From Dehalococcoidia bacterium (GTDB taxonomy: Bacteria; Chloroflexota; Dehalococcoidia; Bin125): a DNA stretch of 64,000 bases. The position numbers and the translations under genes were made by a program. The stretch lies in assembly GCA_022828105.1 (NCBI GenBank), contig JAJEJC010000008.1:186001-250000 (forward strand), written 5' to 3'. This document shows, in pieces, positions 47,138-58,683 of the stretch. The first letter of the stretch is position 1. Every line of letters starts with the position of its first letter. Below the pieces are notes generated by a model. That model was not told the DNA's origin, did not search any database, and was given only the letters and a program-made list of their open reading frames with translations.

Positions 47138-47157
47138 CATTGATGGAAAGGCCAACA

Positions 47158-48105
47158 ATGACCATGCGAGTGACGTTTGGAGCGCAGATTCCCGGCAACT
47201 CCACTGATTTCTCGTTGATGCGGGATGTGGCGCAAACGATGGATGCGACGCGATGGTCCTCAGCCTGGACCTACGACCACTTCGTCCCGCCGCTCGTCTT
47301 CATGGACGAGACCCAGGACTCGCTCGAGGGCTGGATGACGCTGGCCGCGCTCGGCGAAGCCACAACCAACCTGATGCTCGGAACGCTGGTCTCTGGCGTC
47401 ACCTATCGCAACCCCGGTCTGCTGGCCAAGATGACCGCCACCATGGACCACAACACCGGCGGACGGGCGATCCTCGGCCTGGGCGCGGCCTGGCACGAAC
47501 GCGAACATGCCGCCTACGGCTGGGACTTCCCCGAACTGCGGGAGCGATCGGATCGGCTGGAAGAGGCGACAGCGCTGATTCGAGCGCTGTTCCGCTCCGA
47601 CGGACCGGTGCAGTTCGAAGGCAAGTACTACCGGCTCGATCACGCGCCGTTCGCGCCTCGCGTGCATCCCGATCATCCAGGCGGCGCGATCGAAATCATG
47701 ATCGGCGGCAACGGCGCCCGACGAACGCTGCGCACACTGGGTCGCTACGGCGACATCTGCAACGTGCGCGGAACGCCGGAGCAGGTGGCCGAGATGATCG
47801 ACGTGATCCACGGCCATTGCCGCGACGCGGGCCGCGACCCGTCGGAGATCACCCTGACGACGGTCATGCGCCCCGCCCTGGTCGACGAGCAGCACAAAAT
47901 CGATCGCCTGCGCCAGGTCCACGGCGAAGGCATGTCGGACGAACAGCGAACCCGACTGCCGATCGGCCCGGCCGAGCACCTGATCAGCCTGTTCGAGGAG
48001 TACGAAGCAATCGGCATCACCGGCTTCGTCTTCGAGTCGATCCCCAACAATCCGCGCCTGTACGAACAGTTCGACGATCTGGTGCTGAGCGCGTTCGACG
48101 ACTAG
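47158..48105 (+). CDS. LLM-class oxidoreductase, tandem paralogue A
   Basis: 315 aa, probably F420- or FMN-dependent. MTMRVTFGAQIPGNSTDFSL and HNTGGRAILGLGAAWHEREH are typical of the LLM barrel. Start ATG-ACC-ATG is chosen because GGAAAGG precedes it and it matches paralogue B exactly; an earlier in-frame ATG adds MERPT. It and paralogue B align without gaps over the full 315 residues, with roughly three quarters identity by eye. Substrate unknown; the next genes encode amino-acid-type binding proteins. Confidence 0.9.
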   Translation: MTMRVTFGAQIPGNSTDFSLMRDVAQTMDATRWSSAWTYDHFVPPLVFMDETQDSLEGWMTLAALGEATTNLMLGTLVSGVTYRNPGLLAKMTATMDHNTGGRAILGLGAAWHEREHAAYGWDFPELRERSDRLEEATALIRALFRSDGPVQFEGKYYRLDHAPFAPRVHPDHPGGAIEIMIGGNGARRTLRTLGRYGDICNVRGTPEQVAEMIDVIHGHCRDAGRDPSEITLTTVMRPALVDEQHKIDRLRQVHGEGMSDEQRTRLPIGPAEHLISLFEEYEAIGITGFVFESIPNNPRLYEQFDDLVLSAFDD

Positions 48106-48127
48106 CGAGTTCTCGCAAGGAGCGGTC

Positions 48128-49075
48128 ATGACCATGCGATTGATGTTCGGGGCTCAGATTCCGGGCAATCAGACCGATTTCTCGCTAATGCGCGACGTCG
48201 CCCAGACGATGGATGCGACGCGCTGGCACTCGGCCTGGACCTATGACCACTTCGTGCCGCCGCTGGACTTCATGGACGAGACCGGCGACTCGCTCGAGGG
48301 CTGGATGACGCTGGCCGCGCTTGGTGAGGCAACATCAAATCTGATGCTGGGCACGCTGGTCTCGGCCGTGACCTACCGCAGTCCCAGCCTGGTTGCCAAG
48401 ATGACCGCGACGCTCGATCACAACACGGGCGGCCGCGCCATCCTCGGACTGGGCGCAGCCGGACATGCCCGCGAGCACGGCTTCTACGGCTGGGAGTTCC
48501 CATCGATCAAGGAGCGCTCGGATCGACTCGAAGAAGCCGCCGAGCTGATCCGCGCCCTGCTCCATGCCGAGGGCCGGGTCGACTACCGGGGCGAGCACTA
48601 CCAGCTCAACAACGCGCCGTTCGCGCCTCGCGCCCACCCCGATCATCCCGGCGGATTCGTGCAGATCATGATCGGCGGCAACGGTGAGCGGCGCACCTTG
48701 CGCACGCTGGCGCGGCACGGCGACATCTGCAACATCCGCGGCACGCCGGATGAGGTCTCGCGTCTGATCGACGTCATTCATCGCCACTGCGCCGAAGCCG
48801 GCCGCGATCCCTCGGAGATCTATCTGACCACCGTGATGCGTCCCGCACTGGTCTACGAGCAGCACAAGATCGACCGATTGCGAAGCATCCACGGTGAAGG
48901 CATGGCGGAAGACGAGTTGCAGCACTTGCCGATCGGCCCGGCCGAGCACCTGATCAGCGTGTTCGAGCAGTACGAGGCGGTTGGAATCCAGGGGTTTGTG
49001 TTCGAGTCGATTCCCAACAATCCCAGGCTCTTCGAGCAGTTTGATAGCGAAGTGCTCACCGCCTTCGACGACTAA
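48128..49075 (+). CDS. LLM-class oxidoreductase, tandem paralogue B
   Basis: 315 aa, the same fold as paralogue A: MTMRLMFGAQIPGNQTDFSL and HNTGGRAILGLGAAGHAREH. AAGGAG precedes the ATG-ACC-ATG start. Differences cluster at the barrel mouth (A: YYRLDHAPFAPRV, B: HYQLNNAPFAPRA; A: AWHEREHAAYG, B: AGHAREHGFYG), so the substrate may have diverged. It follows paralogue A by 22 nt and is 108 nt before the dual binding-protein gene. Confidence 0.9.
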   Translation: MTMRLMFGAQIPGNQTDFSLMRDVAQTMDATRWHSAWTYDHFVPPLDFMDETGDSLEGWMTLAALGEATSNLMLGTLVSAVTYRSPSLVAKMTATLDHNTGGRAILGLGAAGHAREHGFYGWEFPSIKERSDRLEEAAELIRALLHAEGRVDYRGEHYQLNNAPFAPRAHPDHPGGFVQIMIGGNGERRTLRTLARHGDICNIRGTPDEVSRLIDVIHRHCAEAGRDPSEIYLTTVMRPALVYEQHKIDRLRSIHGEGMAEDELQHLPIGPAEHLISVFEQYEAVGIQGFVFESIPNNPRLFEQFDSEVLTAFDD

Positions 49076-49183
49076 GGCGCTACCTGCTCAGACGCCTGGC
49101 CGCGTGCCTGTGTGTAAGCTCTGTACCAAACGGAGCCGATGCGCGTCCCCACTGCCGGGACTGCGCTTCCCCTGGAGGATGTG

Positions 49184-51739
49184 ATGCTCGTACGTCTCTT
49201 CCGGCCGATGGCAATCACAATGCTGGTCGCACTGGCGCTGGGACTCTTCGCCGCCTGTGGCGACGACGACGAACAGCAACAGCAATCGCTCGCCGCGCAA
49301 CAGCAGCAGGCCCAGCAGCAGGAGCGCGCCGCCCCTGCGACTCAGCAGCAGGATCAGCAGGATCAACCCGCCCAGACCGGGGCGGTCCAGGGACCGCTGA
49401 AGATCGCCTTCCTGGCCGACTTCTCGGGCGGACTCGCGGAGTACGGCCTCTCCATGCAGCGGGGATTTGAACTGGCGATTTCTCACGTCAACGCCGCCGG
49501 CGGCGTCTGGGGCCAGCCGGTCGAGGTCGTGTTCGGCGACACCGCGCTCGATCCCACGCAGGCGACCGAGGAAGCGCGGCGCCTGATTGAAGTTGAGCGC
49601 GTGCACGCCATCGTCGGACCGTTGGCGTCCTCAATCACGCTGGCCGTGGTCGAGTCCGTCGCCGCCGACGCCGGAGTGCTCGTCGTCTCTCCGTCGGCGA
49701 CATCGCCGCAAATCACCATCTCCGAAGACAACGACTTCCTCTTCCGCAGCTCGCCGTCCGACGCCGCGCAGGGACCGGTTTTGGCGCAGTTGGCGGCGGA
49801 CCAGGGCCTCAGCCGCGTCGGCGTGCTCTATCGCAACGACGCATGGGGCCAGGGGCTGGCAGACGCATTCGGGGCATCGTGGGGCGGCAGCGCCAATTTC
49901 GTCGCGATCGAGGTCGGCCGCACGTCCTACATCGCCGAACTCCAGCAGGCCGCCGAAGGCGGGATGCAGGCGCTCGTGGCGATGGCGTTCCCGCCCGAGT
50001 CAGAGGTGTTCATCCGCGAGGCGCTGGAGCAGGGTCTGTTCGACCACTTCATCTTCACCGACGGCAACAAGAGTCAGGATCTAATCGACGCGATTGGCGG
50101 CGAGTATCTCAACGGCATGCAAGGCACGGCGCCGGTCTCCGGACCGGAGACGGAAGCCTTGCTCAACTACCGCGCCGACTTCGCCGCCGAGTTCGGCGAG
50201 GGCGCGGACGAACCGTTCGTCGCGCAGACCTACGACGCCGCGCTGGTCGTCGCCCTCGCCGCCGAGCACGCCGGCCGCGACGACCGTACGGCGATCCGCG
50301 ACAGCCTCCGAGCGGTCGCCGGACCGCCGGGCAGCGCGATCCAGGCAGGCGCCGACGGCGTCGCCGAGGCGCTTGCCGCGATCCGCGCCGGAGAGGACGT
50401 CGATATCGCCGGCGCCTCGACCTCGCTCGACTTCGACGCCAACGGAGACATCGCCACCGGTTTCATCGGCGTCTGGCAGTACGCCGAGGGAACGATTGCC
50501 GAAGTCAGCGTGACCGGCTTTGACTTGAGCGGCGGTCCGCTCGTGGTGACGCCGAGCCAGTCGGATCAGGCGCAGGCCCAGGCCGTCTCGGACGAGCCGC
50601 TCAAGATTGGATTCCTGGCCGACTTCTCCGGCCCGCTGGCCGAGTTTGGTCCGTCAATCCTGAGCGGAGTCGAACTGGCGATCAAGCAACTCAACGACGC
50701 CGGCGGCGTGCTCGGACATCCGGTCCAGCTCGTGACCGGCGACACGGCGCTCGACCCGACCCAGGCAACCGAAGAGACACGCCGGCTGATCGAGGTCGAA
50801 GGCGTGCACGCGATTGTCGGTCCGCTGGCGTCCTCGATCACCCTGGCCGTGGTCGAGTCGGTCGCGGCCGATGCGGGCGTGCTCGTCATTTCGCCGTCGG
50901 CCACGTCGCCGCAACTCACCATCGCCGAGGACGACGACTTCCTCTTCCGCACCACAGTTTCCGATGCGGCGCAGGGACCGGTCCTGGCGCAGCTTGCGGC
51001 GGACGAAGGCTACAACAACGTCGGCGTGCTCTACCTCAACGATCCCTACGGTCAGGGTCTGGCGGAGGCGTTCAACGCCGCCTGGACCGGCGCCGCCAAC
51101 ATCGTCTCGATTGAGCCTCGGCAAGCGTCCTACCTCGCCGAACTGCAGCAGGCCGCCAGCAACGACGCGGAGGCGCTGATCGTGATCGCATTCCCGCAGG
51201 AGGCCGAGATCTTCATTCGCGAAGCCCTGGAGCAAGGATTCTTCGATGAATTCCTGTTCGTCGACGGCAGCAAGAGCCAGGACCTGGTAGACGCGATCGG
51301 CGGCGAGTTCCTGGAAGGCATGAGAGGCACGGCGCAGGCGCCGGGTCCGGATTCGCCCGCCTTGCTGCTCTTCAACCAGTCGTACATCGCGGAATACGGC
51401 GAGTTGTCGCCGCTGCCCTTCGTGGTTGAGGCGTACGACGCTGCCGTTGCGATCGGGATCGCGGCGCAGGCCGCGGGTTCGGTCGATCCCGCGGCAATCC
51501 GCGACGCGCTGCGCATCGTCGCCGGGCCTCCGGGCGATCCGTACGCAATCGGCGGTGAAGGCGTCGGAGCGGCCCTGGCGGCCGTCGCGCAAGGCTGGCA
51601 AGTCGACCTCGAGGGCGCGGCGACCTCGCTCGACTGGGACGAGCACGGCGACATCACGTCCGGCTACATCGGCGTCTGGGCATACGAGAGCGGCAGCATC
51701 GTTGAAATCAGCGTGACCGCGTTCGATCTGACCGAGTAG
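49184..51739 (+). CDS. Double-domain LivK-type substrate-binding lipoprotein
   Basis: 851 aa from ATG 49184, with GGAGG 5-6 nt upstream. Signal peptide and lipobox LFAAC (Cys25) are followed by a Gln-rich tether (~28-67). Residues ~71-452 form one complete Peripla_BP_6 (branched-chain amino acid binding) domain beginning PLKIAFLADFSGGLAEYG, and ~468-851 a second beginning PLKIGFLADFSGPLAEFG, joined by a ~15-residue Ser/Gln/Ala linker. The two are strongly alike: VHAIVGPLASSITLAVVESV occurs in both. A normal LivK has one domain and ~400 aa. The third LivK-type gene follows 16 nt later and the Liv transporter genes are convergent. Likely binds amino acids or related acids outside the cell. Confidence 0.9.
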   Translation: MLVRLFRPMAITMLVALALGLFAACGDDDEQQQQSLAAQQQQAQQQERAAPATQQQDQQDQPAQTGAVQGPLKIAFLADFSGGLAEYGLSMQRGFELAISHVNAAGGVWGQPVEVVFGDTALDPTQATEEARRLIEVERVHAIVGPLASSITLAVVESVAADAGVLVVSPSATSPQITISEDNDFLFRSSPSDAAQGPVLAQLAADQGLSRVGVLYRNDAWGQGLADAFGASWGGSANFVAIEVGRTSYIAELQQAAEGGMQALVAMAFPPESEVFIREALEQGLFDHFIFTDGNKSQDLIDAIGGEYLNGMQGTAPVSGPETEALLNYRADFAAEFGEGADEPFVAQTYDAALVVALAAEHAGRDDRTAIRDSLRAVAGPPGSAIQAGADGVAEALAAIRAGEDVDIAGASTSLDFDANGDIATGFIGVWQYAEGTIAEVSVTGFDLSGGPLVVTPSQSDQAQAQAVSDEPLKIGFLADFSGPLAEFGPSILSGVELAIKQLNDAGGVLGHPVQLVTGDTALDPTQATEETRRLIEVEGVHAIVGPLASSITLAVVESVAADAGVLVISPSATSPQLTIAEDDDFLFRTTVSDAAQGPVLAQLAADEGYNNVGVLYLNDPYGQGLAEAFNAAWTGAANIVSIEPRQASYLAELQQAASNDAEALIVIAFPQEAEIFIREALEQGFFDEFLFVDGSKSQDLVDAIGGEFLEGMRGTAQAPGPDSPALLLFNQSYIAEYGELSPLPFVVEAYDAAVAIGIAAQAAGSVDPAAIRDALRIVAGPPGDPYAIGGEGVGAALAAVAQGWQVDLEGAATSLDWDEHGDITSGYIGVWAYESGSIVEISVTAFDLTE

Positions 51740-51755: not shown

Positions 51756-53087
51756 ATGCGTCTCTCCCTGGTATTGGCGGTCGCGGCAACCGCACTAATG
51801 GCGCTGGTCGTGTCTGCCTGCTCAAGCGGTGACGAACCGTCCGGGCAGGCGGCGTCCGCCGCACCGCAGGATCAAGCCGAACATTCTCAGGCGCGACAGA
51901 CCGCTGCATCCGCTCAGCCGGACGGCACGCCGGGTCCGCTGAGGATCGCGTTCCTCGGCGATCTGACCGGCGGGCTGGCCGAGATCGGCGTCGAAATGCG
52001 CGACGGCTTCCTGCTCGCCATCGACCACATCAACGCCGCCGGCGGCGTCTTCGGACAGCCGGTTGAGTTCGTGATCGGCGACACCAACACCGATCCCACC
52101 ATCGCCGTCGAAGAGGCGCGCCGAATGATCGAGATCGAGGGCGCGCACGTCGTCGTAGGGGCGCACTCCAGCACCAATTCGCTGGCAGTCGCCGAGAGCA
52201 TCACCGGCCCGGCCGGCATCCCGCAGATTTCGCCCGCATCGTCCTCGCCGCAGCTCGCGGTCGCGGCCGATAACGATTTCCTCTTTCGAGCCACGCTCAA
52301 CGACAAGGTCCAGGGTCCTGCCCTGGCCCAACTCGTCGCCGAGCAGGGCTACACCAACGTCGGCGTGATCTATCGCGACGACGCATGGGGTCAGGGCATC
52401 GCCGACTCGTTCGCCGAGGCCTTTGTCGAGCAGTGGTCCGGGCAGGTCGTCAAGGTCGCCGTCGCCCCTCAACAGACGACGTATCTCAGCGAAATTCAGC
52501 AGTCGCTGCAGAACGAGCCCGATGCGCTGGTCATGCTGGCCTATGTTCCCGAGGGCACAATCATCCTGCGCGAGTCAATTGAGAACGACCTCTACGACCG
52601 TTTCGTCTTCGGACCGACCAGTCGCAATTTCGACTTGATCGATGCGATCGGTGCGGAGTACCTGGCCGACATGCCTGGTACCGCGCCGGGCACAGCGCCG
52701 GGCACCGAGTCGGCACTGCTATGGGAGTCCGCGTTCATCGAGAAGTTCGAGCGACCGTACGCCTACCCGTACACCAAGCAGGCCTACGACGCGACGATCG
52801 CCTTCGCGCTCGCTGCCGAGGCCGCCGGCTCGACCGACGGCGTGGCGATCCGCGATCAGCTCCGCCGGATCGGCGGCGCGCCGGGGCAGGTCGTGCTGGC
52901 CGACATCGGCAGCATCCGCCTCGGCCTTGAAGCCGCCCGCAACGGCGAAGACATCGACTACGAGGGCGCCGCCCAGTCGCTCGAGTGGGACGAGAACGGA
53001 GACCTCGCCCGAGGCTACGTCGGCATCTGGCGCTTCACTCCACAGGGCGGCATCGAAGACACCGGCGTCATCCCCTACGGCGAGTAG
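51756..53087 (+). CDS. LivK-type substrate-binding lipoprotein
   Basis: 443 aa. Signal peptide with lipobox VSAC (Cys22), then a Gln/Ala/Ser-rich tether (~25-55) and one Peripla_BP_6 domain: PLRIAFLGDLTGGLAEIGVE, AGGVFGQPVEFVIGDTNTDP and TNVGVIYRDDAWGQGIADSF. Its closest relative in the window is the double-domain protein, so it is a third copy from the same duplication series. It starts 16 nt after that gene, same strand, and ends 16 nt before the convergent livM. Confidence 0.92.
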   Translation: MRLSLVLAVAATALMALVVSACSSGDEPSGQAASAAPQDQAEHSQARQTAASAQPDGTPGPLRIAFLGDLTGGLAEIGVEMRDGFLLAIDHINAAGGVFGQPVEFVIGDTNTDPTIAVEEARRMIEIEGAHVVVGAHSSTNSLAVAESITGPAGIPQISPASSSPQLAVAADNDFLFRATLNDKVQGPALAQLVAEQGYTNVGVIYRDDAWGQGIADSFAEAFVEQWSGQVVKVAVAPQQTTYLSEIQQSLQNEPDALVMLAYVPEGTIILRESIENDLYDRFVFGPTSRNFDLIDAIGAEYLADMPGTAPGTAPGTESALLWESAFIEKFERPYAYPYTKQAYDATIAFALAAEAAGSTDGVAIRDQLRRIGGAPGQVVLADIGSIRLGLEAARNGEDIDYEGAAQSLEWDENGDLARGYVGIWRFTPQGGIEDTGVIPYGE

Positions 53088-53103: not shown

Positions 53104-54153
53104 TCAACGTGACACCGCGCGGCGCGCCCGCTGCCAGATCGAGGCCCGGCCATCGTCGGGACCGGGGTCAGGACCCTCCGAGACGAACCGGCTCACGCGA
53201 TCACGCTCGGCCAGGAGACCTTGCGGCCGCCAGAGCAGGAACGCCACAATCAGGACTCCGATCAACAGTTGGCGGACCTGGAAGACGCGGCTGCCGAGCC
53301 AGTCGGGCAGACTCTCCTGGATCAACGGCGTCCCGAACCAGAAGAAGCCAACCACCAACGCACCCAGCACGACGCCTCGGTGATTGCCGCTGCCGCCGAC
53401 GATCAACATCGTCCAGACGAAGAACGTGCCCAGCAGGTCGGAGAACGTGAGCGGCGAGATCGTCCCGCTGCGGTGCGCGTAAATCGCTCCGCCCAGGCCC
53501 ATCAGCATGGCGCCGAGCACGAAGGCGATCATCCGGAACCGCACCGTGTTCTTGCCCGAGGCTCGAGCCGTGTCTTCGTTGTCGCGGATCGCGCGCAGCG
53601 CGCGGCCCCAGGGCGAAGCCGAGGCCCGCGAGACCAGCCAGTAGACGACGACTAACACGGCCAGCGCAATCGCGAGTTCGACCCAGCGGTAGCCGCCGCC
53701 GCTGACCTCGTCCTCCAGCAGACCGTCGATTCCGTTGAGTCCGCGGCTGCGGTTGACCAGCCCTTCGACGGAGTTCGCAATGCTGCGCAGGATCGCGGCC
53801 ACGCCGATCGTCGCGATGGCGAGGAAATCGTCGCGCAGCCGCAGCGTGGGGATGCCGAGCAATAGCGCGAGCACTGCGCCGGCTACGGCGGCGAAGATCC
53901 ATCCGACAGGAATCGGCAAGCCCCAGCCGGCGACGTATGCTTCGAGGCCCTCCGGCGCGGGAAGCGTAAGGACGGCCGATACGTATGCGCCGACCATGAA
54001 GAACGCCGCGACGCCGAAGTTGAGAATGCCGACGCTCCATTGCACGTTGAGCGCCAGCGCCAGGATGGCGAAGATCGCCACCGTGGTCAGGAAGCCGACC
54101 GTCCAGTTGACGGCCCCGTCGAACGTGACCAGGGTGACCACGATCTGTTCCAT
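53104..54153 (-). CDS. livM: Branched-chain amino acid ABC transporter permease LivM
   Basis: 349 aa. NVQWSVGILNFGVAAFFMVG, LRLRDDFLAIATIGVAAILR and the C-terminal RQLLIGVLIVAFLLWRPQGL are LivM segments; 8-9 membrane helices. ATG 54153 is chosen over an in-frame start 51 nt earlier inside livH. Last gene of the operon hit-livG-livF-livH-livM. It spans the membrane and pairs with LivH. Confidence 0.93.
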   Translation of the reverse strand: MEQIVVTLVTFDGAVNWTVGFLTTVAIFAILALALNVQWSVGILNFGVAAFFMVGAYVSAVLTLPAPEGLEAYVAGWGLPIPVGWIFAAVAGAVLALLLGIPTLRLRDDFLAIATIGVAAILRSIANSVEGLVNRSRGLNGIDGLLEDEVSGGGYRWVELAIALAVLVVVYWLVSRASASPWGRALRAIRDNEDTARASGKNTVRFRMIAFVLGAMLMGLGGAIYAHRSGTISPLTFSDLLGTFFVWTMLIVGGSGNHRGVVLGALVVGFFWFGTPLIQESLPDWLGSRVFQVRQLLIGVLIVAFLLWRPQGLLAERDRVSRFVSEGPDPGPDDGRASIWQRARRAVSR

Positions 54154-54154
54154 C

Positions 54155-55069
54155 TCAACGCGCCTGTCCAAAGAGGCCGCGAGGCCGTAACAACAGCACC
54201 ACAATCACGATCACGAATGGGATGCCCGGCTTGAGGCCGGTGTTGATCCACTGCGTCGACACCTCCTGGGCGATGCCAACCAGCAGCCCGCCGAACAGCG
54301 CGCCCCAGGGATTGCCGATCCCGCCCAGAATCACCGCCGCGAACAACGGCAGGAGCAGCCGGAATCCCGCGTCGAAGCGGACCTCGGCCTGGAGCCCAAG
54401 CATGACCCCGGCCAGCGCCGCCAGCATCCCGCCCACGATCCAGGTGCCGTAGCGGATGCGGTTCGTGTCGATGCCCGAGGCCTCGGCCAGTCCGGGGTTG
54501 TCGGCGGTCGCGCGCATCGCCTTGCCGAAGCGCGTTCGGTAGAGCAGCCAGTAGAGCAGCACGGCGGCGAGAATCGTGATGCCGACGATGAAGAACTGGT
54601 CCGGCTTGACCTTGATCCCGCCGAGAATCTCGGTCGCCGGATGGATTCCGGGGGTATAGCGGAAGTTGGACGGTCCCCAGATCAGTTGGATGACCGCGCG
54701 CATCCCGATTGAGATGCCCAGCGAGGCGATGGCGAAGACGAAAAACGTGCCGCCTGCGTCGCGCAAGCGGCGGAAGACGAGCCGTTCGAGCACGAGCGAG
54801 AGCGCGGCCACGCCGAGCATCGCCACGAGGACGCCGACCACCAGTCCCCAGCCGAATGAGAGCGAGCCGAACTGTCCGCCGGCGAAGCCGAGGTTCGCGC
54901 CCTCGGATGACACGACGAAGAAAGCGAGGAACATTCCCCAGCCCATCTTGTCGCCGTGGGCGAAATCGCCGACGCCGAGCACGCCGTAGACCAGCGTCAG
55001 ACCCATCGCGCCAAGGGCGATGATCGATCCAACGATGATGCCGACCGTGACCAGTTGCGCGATGTCTAT
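54155..55069 (-). CDS. livH: Branched-chain amino acid ABC transporter permease LivH, probable ATA start
   Basis: 304 aa if started at ATA (55069-55067): [I/M]DIAQLVTVGIIVGSIIALGA then MGLTLVYGVLGVGDFAHGDK. The first helix and DIAQLV start are those of normal LivH. GGGAG lies 6 nt before the ATA, and the ATA overlaps the livF stop (ATAG) just as ATGA overlaps elsewhere in the operon. The only other nearby options are CTG at 55054-55052 or the ATG at 55006, which would cut the first helix. Otherwise typical LivH: AMRATADNPGLAEASGIDTN and LGGIGNPWGALFGGLLVGIA. Confidence 0.85.
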   Translation of the reverse strand: MDIAQLVTVGIIVGSIIALGAMGLTLVYGVLGVGDFAHGDKMGWGMFLAFFVVSSEGANLGFAGGQFGSLSFGWGLVVGVLVAMLGVAALSLVLERLVFRRLRDAGGTFFVFAIASLGISIGMRAVIQLIWGPSNFRYTPGIHPATEILGGIKVKPDQFFIVGITILAAVLLYWLLYRTRFGKAMRATADNPGLAEASGIDTNRIRYGTWIVGGMLAALAGVMLGLQAEVRFDAGFRLLLPLFAAVILGGIGNPWGALFGGLLVGIAQEVSTQWINTGLKPGIPFVIVIVVLLLRPRGLFGQAR

Positions 55070-55827
55070 TGCCGGCTCCCTTCCTCCAGCGTGAACCCCT
55101 CGCCCTCTTCCTGGCCGAGAAACGCGCGGCCGACTTCGGGGCTGGTCAGCATCTCGCGGCCGGAGCCCTCCATAGCCTTCTCGCCGTCGACCATCACGAG
55201 CCCGCGGTCGGACCAGACCAGCGCCTCGGTCGCGTTCTGTTCGACCATCAGGATGCCGACGCCGGTCATGTGAATCTGGTAGATGCGGCTGAGCAGCTCG
55301 CCGCGAGCGGCCGGAGCCAGCGCCGCGGTCGGCTCGTCAAGGCAGAGCATGACCGGGTCGAGCATCAGCGCGCGAGCCATGGCGAGCATCTGTCGTTGCC
55401 CTCCCGAAAGCCGGCTGGCACGCTCTCCAGGACGTTGCTCAAGGTCCGGGAACATGGCCAGGACCTCGCCGATTCGTTCGCGCAGGCCGTCCCTGCGCAT
55501 GTAGCCGCCCATCTCCAGGTTTTCGCGAATCGACATCGAGGTGAACACGTTGTCGACCTGGGGCACATAGCCGACGCCGGAGGCGATCATGCGCGGCGTG
55601 GACCAGCCGCTGACGTCCTCGCCCTGGAAGTAGCGGCGACCGTGCTCGAACGGCAGCGCGCCGACGATCGCCTTGAGCAGCGTCGACTTGCCCGCGCCAT
55701 TAGGTCCGATGATGGTCAGGATTTCGTCCCCGAACAGGTCCAACTCGACATCGTGGATGATCTCGATCCCCTCGACGTAGCCGCCGCTGAACTGCTCGAC
55801 ACGCAGCAGGGGACTCCGGTTCGTCAT
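55066..55827 (-). CDS. livF: Branched-chain amino acid ABC transporter ATPase LivF
   Basis: 253 aa. Walker A GPNGAGKSTLLKA, signature RLSGGQRQMLAMARAL, Walker B VMLCLDEPTAALAP, and the LivF-type VPQVDNVFTSMSIRENLEMG. It overlaps livG by 4 nt. ATG 55827 is chosen over a long in-frame run into livG. Confidence 0.94.
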   Translation of the reverse strand: MTNRSPLLRVEQFSGGYVEGIEIIHDVELDLFGDEILTIIGPNGAGKSTLLKAIVGALPFEHGRRYFQGEDVSGWSTPRMIASGVGYVPQVDNVFTSMSIRENLEMGGYMRRDGLRERIGEVLAMFPDLEQRPGERASRLSGGQRQMLAMARALMLDPVMLCLDEPTAALAPAARGELLSRIYQIHMTGVGILMVEQNATEALVWSDRGLVMVDGEKAMEGSGREMLTSPEVGRAFLGQEEGEGFTLEEGSRQ

Positions 55828-56594
55828 TGCCGGCGTCCGCTCAGGTAGGCAGCCTGCACCTCGGGATCGGCGAGCACGTCGTTGGCCGCGCCGACCGCCA
55901 GCACGCGGCCCTGGGCCATGACAATCACCGGCTCGCAGAGCTGTCGCACGAAGTCGAGGTTGTGCTCGATGATCAGAAACGTCAGCCCCAGTTCCGCGCA
56001 CAGCTCACGGATGTGTTCCGCCAGCCGCCGGACCAGGGCCGGATTGACGCCGGCGCCGGGCTCGTCCAGCAGGATCATCCGGGGCTCGGCCATCAGCGCG
56101 CGAGCGAGCTCGAGCAGCTTTCGCTGCCCGCCCGACAATGCGCCCGCGCGGATGTATGCCTGGTGGCCAAGCTGGGTTTGCGCCAGGACCTCATGCGCCC
56201 GCGCCTCCAGCCGCTCCTCTTCTTCGCGCACCCGCCAGGGCGTCAGCCAGGTCCGCCAGACCGCTTCACCGGACTGCCGCTCTCCGGCCAGCATCAGGTT
56301 TTCGAGCACGGTCATCGTGTCGAGTTCCTGTGGAATCTGAAACGTGCGGACGAGACCCCGGTTGAACATTCGGTGCGGCGGGAATCCGGTGACGTCCTCC
56401 CCTGCAAAGCGGACGCTCCCGCCGTCGGGTTTGAGGAATCCAGCCACGCAGTTGAATGCCGTCGTTTTGCCCGCGCCGTTGGGCCCGATCATGCCGGCGA
56501 TCTGGCCTTCTCCAACCGCAAACGAAGCCTGGTCGCAGGCTCGCAAGCCGCCAAAGTGCTTGTCCAGATCAAGAACCTCAAGCAGTGCGACCAT
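55824..56594 (-). CDS. livG: Branched-chain amino acid ABC transporter ATPase LivG
   Basis: 256 aa. Walker A GPNGAGKTTAFNCVAGF, the LivG motif FNRGLVRTFQIPQEL, signature LSGGQRKLLELARALM and Walker B RMILLDEPGAGVNP. Follows the HIT gene by 21 nt. Confidence 0.94.
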   Translation of the reverse strand: MVALLEVLDLDKHFGGLRACDQASFAVGEGQIAGMIGPNGAGKTTAFNCVAGFLKPDGGSVRFAGEDVTGFPPHRMFNRGLVRTFQIPQELDTMTVLENLMLAGERQSGEAVWRTWLTPWRVREEEERLEARAHEVLAQTQLGHQAYIRAGALSGGQRKLLELARALMAEPRMILLDEPGAGVNPALVRRLAEHIRELCAELGLTFLIIEHNLDFVRQLCEPVIVMAQGRVLAVGAANDVLADPEVQAAYLSGRRQ

Positions 56595-57049: not shown

Positions 57050-57814
57050 ATGTCCGGACACGCCATCGACGCCAACCTCGTCCTGGTCCGCCACGGACAG
57101 AGCCGCTGGAACCTTGAGAACCGCTTCACCGGCTGGATCGACGTCGACCTGACGCCGCAAGGGATCGCCGAGGCGCATAGCGCGGGACGGCAGATTCGCG
57201 AAGCCGGCATCGAGTTCGATGCGGCCTGGACCTCGGTCCTGCAGCGCGCCATCCACACGCTCTGGATCATCCTCGACGAGATCAAAGCGCCATGGCTACC
57301 GGTTGGGCGGGACTGGCGACTGAACGAACGCCACTACGGAGCCCTGCAAGGATTGAACAAGGCAGAGACCGCAGCCGAGCACGGCGAACAGCAGGTGCAC
57401 ATCTGGCGTCGTTCCTATGACATCCCGCCGCCGCCGCTGGACAGCGACCATCCCGATCATCCACGTTTCGACCGCCGCTACGCACACACGCCCGCGGACG
57501 CATTGCCGGCCGCAGAGTCTCTCAAGCTGACGCTTGAGCGCGTGCTGCCCTGGTGGGAGTCCGTCGCCGCGCCGGCGCTCCGCGACGGTCGCCGACTGCT
57601 GGTCGCGGCGCACGGCAACAGCATCCGCGCGATCGTCAAGCACCTGGAGTCGATCTCCGACGAGGAGATCGTGGATCTGAACATCCCCACCGGCATGCCG
57701 CTGGCCTTTGCGCTCGACGCCGAGTTGCGGGTCGACGAGCGCGGCTACCTCGCGGGCGAGGAAGAGGCGGCCGCCGCAGCGGCAGCCGTGGCGGCGCAGG
57801 GCCGCGCGTCCTAG
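57050..57814 (+). CDS. gpmA: 2,3-bisphosphoglycerate-dependent phosphoglycerate mutase
   Basis: 254 aa. [20 protein letters not shown] carries the phospho-histidine (RHG), [16 protein letters not shown] and [14 protein letters not shown] complete the active site. It interconverts 3- and 2-phosphoglycerate. A GTG two codons before the ATG is possible but would put the -10 directly at the start. The tail ([17 protein letters not shown]) is an Ala-rich extension. Ends 4 nt into the convergent LLM gene. Confidence 0.95.
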
Positions 57815-58683
57815 GCCGTGACCGCTTCGCGGTACTGACGCACTGCCTCGATGTGTGCGTCAATGTCGGCCAATCCCGCGTTCATCGTGGCGACCGAGAT
57901 GGCCGTCGCGCCGAGGTCGGACCAGCGCTGCGCGTGCGAGACCCACAGATCGGGATTGCCGCCGCGAATCTGCGCCTGCGGCTCGATGCCAAAGCTGTCC
58001 ACGTCGCGGCCGTTGTCCCGCAGGTAGCCGTGAATCGCCTCGACCATCGCCGCCGAGTCGGCGTTGGGCGCCCCGACCGGGAACCAGCCGTCGCCAATCT
58101 TCGCGGCGCGCCGCAGTTGCAGGTCGTGCGCGCCGCCGAACCAGACTTCGATCGGTCCACTCGGGCGCGGTTCGATCCCGGCCGCCGTGACCTTGTGGAA
58201 CTCGCCGTCGAAGTCGACCAGGTGGTTGGCCCAGAACTGCCGCATCAGCTCGATCTGTTCTTCCTGCCGCCGGCCCCGGTTGCGAAAGTTCTCGTTGAGC
58301 GCCTCGTACTCCACGTGGTTCCAGCCGCTGCCCACGCCCAGCCGGAAGCGGTTATCGGAGAGTACGGCCAACTGGGCGGCCTGCTTTGCGACCAGCGTGG
58401 TCTGGCGCTGAGGCAGAATCAACACGGCCGTCGCCAGCCCGAGGTTGCGCGTGCAGGCGGCGATGAATCCCAGCGTGACGAACACCTCGTGGAACGGATG
58501 CTCGTCGGTGTAGGGACCGGTCATCTGGTGGACCGCAGGATCCGCGCCCAACACGTGGTCGTAGATCAACAGGTGGTCGAATCCCATTCCCTCGACCGCC
58601 TGGGCATAGTCGCGGATCGCCGACGGGTCGGCGCCGATCTCGTTAGTCGGCAGCACTGCGCCCAGGGTCAAATCGATTGCCAT
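57811..58683 (-). CDS. LLM-class F420-dependent-type oxidoreductase
   Basis: 290 aa. [57 protein letters not shown] and [20 protein letters not shown] resemble the F420-dependent LLM subfamily. It is monocistronic, divergent from the malyl-CoA lyase gene. The fifth LLM enzyme in the window. Substrate unknown. Confidence 0.88.

Follow-up and report, generated by a model that had tools for sequence, protein, structure and literature searches.

A tandem-domain LivK-type lipoprotein, predicted receptor of a LivHMGF-type importer, and the two versions of its first domain in a genus of Dehalococcoidia

The stretch of Dehalococcoidia DNA analysed here (64,000 nucleotides, hereafter the window) encodes an 851-residue lipoprotein with two complete LivK-type binding domains in series on one predicted lipid anchor, which is probably a substrate receptor of a LivHMGF-type (HAAT) amino acid importer. 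In the mechanism proposed, a long flexible tether with one lipid anchor would carry two Venus-flytrap domains, one behind the other, and either of them would take up a free amino acid by closing around it and hand it over to the same neighbouring LivHM channel. LivFG would provide the ATP, and the channel would also be fed by a second lipoprotein, which has one domain and a changed pocket. What is new here is a first domain that exists in two versions and may be swapped between species.

The tandem gene and its transport locus

The tandem gene is a single open, uninterrupted reading frame in the window sequence. A mechanical ORF call begins at 49139, but the ATG at 49184 is the likelier start, with GGAGGA just upstream and an N-terminus, MLVRLFRPMAITMLVALALGLFAAC, that is a typical lipoprotein signal and supports this choice. 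The features of the gene, its neighbours and one counterpart elsewhere in the phylum are as follows.

47140..49075, + strand: two luciferase-like (LLM class) oxidoreductase genes directly upstream of the tandem gene (Pfam, synteny)
49184..51739, + strand: tandem-domain LivK-type lipoprotein, 851 amino acids (ORF; Pfam PF13458 twice; one ORF in 15 genomes)
49184..49258, + strand: lipoprotein signal peptide with lipobox LFAAC, Cys25 being the expected lipid anchor (sequence; same pattern in orthologues)
49259..49390, + strand: Gln-rich low-complexity tether, residues 26-69, about 44 residues (sequence; pLDDT <50)
49391..50530, + strand: first binding domain D1, class alpha, residues 70-449, the putatively exchanged module (HMM limits, model, swap)
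50531..50593, + strand: inter-domain linker, residues 450-470, about 21 residues (HMM limits, orthologues; low pLDDT)
50594..51736, + strand: second binding domain D2, class gamma, residues 471-851 (HMM limits; PDB matches 3ip5 and 1z15)
51756..53087, + strand: single-domain LivK-type lipoprotein with altered pocket (I18, H77, S102 and P226, LivJ numbering; Pfam, pocket table)
53104..54204, - strand: LivM-type permease, convergent (PF02653, NCBIfam LivM)
54155..55006, - strand: LivH-type permease (PF02653, NCBIfam LivH/UrtB)
55066..55830, - strand: LivF-type ATPase (NCBIfam LivF best hit)
55824..56594, - strand: LivG-type ATPase (NCBIfam LivG best hit)
L198:5794-8334 and L199:3373-5991: apparently independent tandem LivK-type lipoprotein in another Chloroflexota family

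Pfam Peripla_BP_6 (PF13458) matches the protein twice (whole-protein E 1.3e-109; 367 bits over the two stretches, against a cut-off of 31.7). D1 and D2 are 65.5% identical in amino acid sequence over 380 residues, with the stretch VHAIVGPLASSITLAVVESV common to both, and their DNA forms direct repeats at a constant spacing of 1203 nt (71-77% identity in long repeat families). The claim of an earlier note on this DNA, that two complete LivK-type domains with long shared stretches stand on one lipid anchor, is thus borne out by the reading frame, the lipobox, the two Pfam matches and the identity of the halves. The layout that it gave (residues ~71-452 and ~468-851) also stands, with HMM limits slightly displaced and a linker of about 21 rather than about 15 residues. 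At shared codons, third positions agree in 62% of cases, within the window genome as well as between genomes, so the shared stretches reflect constraint and not recent gene conversion between the halves, of which the window genome shows no excess. Some gene conversion between halves is seen in genomes G006 and G013.

The Gln-rich tether is present in every orthologue, in variable sequence, and the protein would be lipid-anchored at Cys25. A model of D1 built with 28 homologous domains (pLDDT 94, pTM 0.92) has as its nearest solved structures LivK 3td9 (TM 0.89), LivJ 4gnr, 4n0q and Atu2422 3ip5 (TM 0.86). The full-length AlphaFold model is middling (pLDDT 67), with tether and linker disordered. 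None of the PDB matches listed is to a solved structure that matches in two separate stretches.

Paralogues that lie side by side and repeats within a gene are well known to mislead assembly, and an assembly join or collapse had been named in the earlier note as a possible refutation. The same one-ORF architecture is found in 15 assemblies, which excludes this, and the linker sequences differ between them. The orthologue in bin125 lies on a contig of 515 kb in a PacBio-Illumina hybrid assembly, this bin having come from the sponge Aplysina aerophoba in a study that used such assembly (PMC5649159). An artefact that fused two adjacent genes is therefore improbable in the extreme.

The single-domain lipoprotein gene starts 16 nt past the stop of the tandem gene and is followed by a complete convergent livMHFG set (53104-56594). 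Wherever the contig reaches far enough for gene order to be judged, the order is conserved: ECH, one or more LLM oxidoreductases, tandem LivK, one to four single LivK genes, and convergent livMHFG. On its two sides the transport locus has three luciferase-like oxidoreductase genes as conserved neighbours (47140-49075, 57811-58683). At L039:3867-12285 and other loci of the genus, one to four extra single-domain LivK genes lie between the tandem gene and livMHFG, in numbers and classes that vary by species.

The window genome encodes three PF13458 domains in all, every one at the tandem locus, and only one LivH/LivM pair; a third BPD_transp_2 protein stands alone elsewhere. Thus, as judged from the genome, two lipoproteins with three binding domains between them most likely serve one permease. 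The genes for the binding proteins point towards livMHFG and do not form one operon with it, so the putative partnership of the tandem LivK with LivHM, and with it delivery to the neighbouring permease, rests on proximity, conserved synteny and the lack of any other LivHM pair.

Distribution and origin of the fusion

Of the 15 genomes of the genus, 14 have the tandem gene as a single ORF, and the remaining one is 88% complete; the gene also occurs in G017, which belongs to another genus of the same family. All other substrate-binding proteins (SBPs) of the arrays are single-domain. A further member of the family, G016, has one single-domain SBP at the equivalent place, convergent with livMHFG. 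In G017 the tandem gene is directly preceded by a LivK gene with one domain (L071:12393-16377); this domain is sister to D1 of G017 itself, and the gene appears to be a duplication intermediate. Tandem duplication followed by fusion thus seems to be visible in steps in G016 and G017.

A scan of 400 Chloroflexota genomes found a second tandem Peripla_BP_6 lipoprotein in genus g112 (G174 and G324; frames of 847 and 873 amino acids, stop to stop), which shares with the window protein a lipobox and two LivK-type domains in one ORF. It differs in being, to all appearances, an independent fusion, because its identity to the window protein is 29% and its own two halves, whose pocket residues are almost alike, are 86% identical to each other. 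In family f68, frame length pointed to fused pairs in G157 and G234, but reading of the ORFs showed separate genes. Among plasmids, no two-domain match was found in the best 30 of 752 records with a match; the best 30 plasmid matches covering >80% of the query are each about 1.1 kb, a single domain matched by both halves. No description of a lipid-anchored tandem LivK was found in the open-access literature. The rarity of the two-domain layout among ordinary LivK proteins, as first suggested, is supported. As to whether the pair is a common single-gene family, it is the rule within one genus and has at least one further origin in the phylum, but is absent from the best 30 of the 752 plasmid matches and from the other Chloroflexota scanned.

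The named relatives of the window genome are Chloroflexi and Dehalococcoidia metagenome-assembled genomes, and from these relatives the window organism would be a sponge symbiont. Amino acid utilisation has been reported as a feature of sponge SAR202 Chloroflexi (PMC6306507), related here by record titles and phylum.

Ligand pockets and exchange of the first domain

The pocket comparison covers ten contacts of LivJ, which do not include position 276 or the C-terminal pocket. Four of them, S79, T102, Y202 and E226, bond the ligand in LivJ (PMC13103812); the others follow the general picture of the LivJ site. In all 14 proteins of the genus, both domains keep S79, A101, T102 and an acidic residue 226, which is Asp as in Atu2422, and both have Phe at 202. 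Since S79, T102 and acidic 226 are kept in each, both domains probably bind amino acids. In the single-domain SBP (51756-53087), I18, H77, S102 and P226 are conserved in 14 genomes and the acidic residue 226 is lost, and this protein probably binds a different ligand class.

The domains fall into three classes: alpha (Y18, W150, T225, N228), beta (F18, Y150, Q205, T228) and gamma (F18, Y150, E205, S228). In the window protein D1 is alpha and D2 is gamma. Alpha and gamma differ at two of the ten contacts (18 and 150), whereas beta and gamma differ at none, so that in the eight sister genomes with beta and gamma no contact tested differs between the two pockets. Compared with the remaining positions of the protein, contacts are not enriched for alpha/gamma differences (Fisher p 0.23). 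A difference in specificity between D1 and D2 in the window species is a fair hypothesis at which these residues hint, and the preferences of the two domains for amino acids would be overlapping and non-identical. The suggestion in the earlier note that the halves bind two different acids accordingly finds some footing at contacts 18 and 150 in the window species, and none at the contacts tested in the eight sister species.

The two versions of the first domain, alpha and beta, are about 60% identical. The domain tree splits D1 into two clades, one from G000, G003, G004, G014, G007 and G008 and one from the remaining eight genomes, whereas D2 of G000, G003, G004 and G014 is nested inside D2 of the eight beta genomes. 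The tree of rpoB and gyrB places G007 and G008 at the base; in it the sister of G000, G003 and G004 is G013 and that of G014 is G006, both of them beta genomes. These genes reject the alpha genomes as one clade (AU p 2e-88), and well-supported branches force at least three changes of state in the D1 version, while D1 rejects the grouping of G014 with G006 (p 4e-7). Taken by itself, the D2 tree gives no firm rejection of an alpha clade (p 0.067), and for monophyly of beta across the two slots the AU p is 0.46.

Because the distribution of alpha and beta contradicts the rpoB and gyrB tree, D1 appears to have been replaced at least two or three times; the replacement may reflect exchange between species by recombination or the sorting of ancient paralogues. 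G014 and G000 change affiliation along the DNA near 49.4 kb and 50.5 kb, which are the positions of the two linkers, so the piece exchanged would be a domain. The pairs observed are alpha with gamma, beta with gamma, and alpha with a beta-like domain, and none has two domains of one class. A tentative proposal, to which we give somewhat less than even weight, is that the receptor has two slots, the first of which acts as a recombination cassette: whole alpha or beta domains would be swapped between species at the linkers and the second slot would stay fixed. If true, this would be a modular re-tuning of amino acid uptake through one permease among related species. A smaller mosaic segment lies within D2, where a patch (~51460-51590, residues ~760-800) is bimodal in the genus, at ~52-57% or 82-97% identity.

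Both domains might instead take the same amino acids, the fusion serving only to double the capture sites per anchor and to raise the local concentration of receptor at the channel. The beta-gamma genomes, without a difference at the ten LivJ contacts, are consistent with this, as are the nearly alike pockets of G174 and G324; the Y18 and W150 of the window D1 together with its changed 225 and 228, against F18 and Y150 in D2, are fixed in all alpha genomes, and the repeated replacement of D1 beside a constant D2 suggests selection for variety in D1. An identical ligand is thus a possible but rather doubtful explanation. Much less probable is a single working domain with the other as a spacer or decoy: linker length does matter for delivery in GlnPQ (PMC8025302), but the pocket residues S79, T102 and acidic 226 are retained on both sides, and both halves are conserved as whole folded domains. 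The same small probability is given to a sensor or chemoreceptor-like ligand trap in place of a transport receptor. Class C receptors share the fold (PDB matches to mGlu and GABA-B) and the convergent genes form no single operon, yet neither the protein nor its annotated neighbours contain a kinase or signalling domain, and livMHFG adjoins the gene on every contig that is long enough. With a transport receptor as the preferred reading, the advantage of fusion would lie in local concentration and ligand breadth.

Comparison with known binding proteins

The tandem protein shares with LivK and LivJ (E. coli LivJ 1z15, Thermotoga maritima LivK 3td9, Agrobacterium Atu2422 3ip5) the fold, PF13458, the residues S79, T102 and acidic 226, and a nearby LivHMGF, but those proteins have one domain each, whereas the window protein has two on one lipid anchor. 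It belongs to the broad HAAT SBP family by domain, fold and residues, and departs from it in not being single-domain. Its score against the NCBIfam LivK-type model NF011933 is 238 bits, below the cut-off of 477, so by its sequence it appears related to the E. coli-type LivK and not its equivalent.

Tandem binding domains are also known from GlnPQ, where they bind independently and are joined by a 14-residue linker whose length affects transport (PMC8025302). The likeness lies in two tandem domains for one channel, with a linker of 21 residues here; in GlnPQ and OpuA, however, the binding domains form one covalent chain with the transmembrane subunit, whereas here they form a free lipoprotein with the permease genes on the other strand. 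The domains here also have the type I fold of LivK, unlike those of GlnPQ and OpuA. BvgS-type sensors carry tandem Venus-flytrap domains in series, but they are membrane kinases with another family of binding domain.

The design is thus mildly unusual and made of well-known parts: nature has set two LivK-type domains in tandem on a free lipid anchor, and a genus with sponge-symbiont genomes among its relatives has kept the arrangement. The question of fusion has so far been studied in importers with permease-fused domains, and these natural chimaeras, together with the one LivHM permease of the window genome, make the effect of SBP fusion on affinity, breadth and delivery testable.
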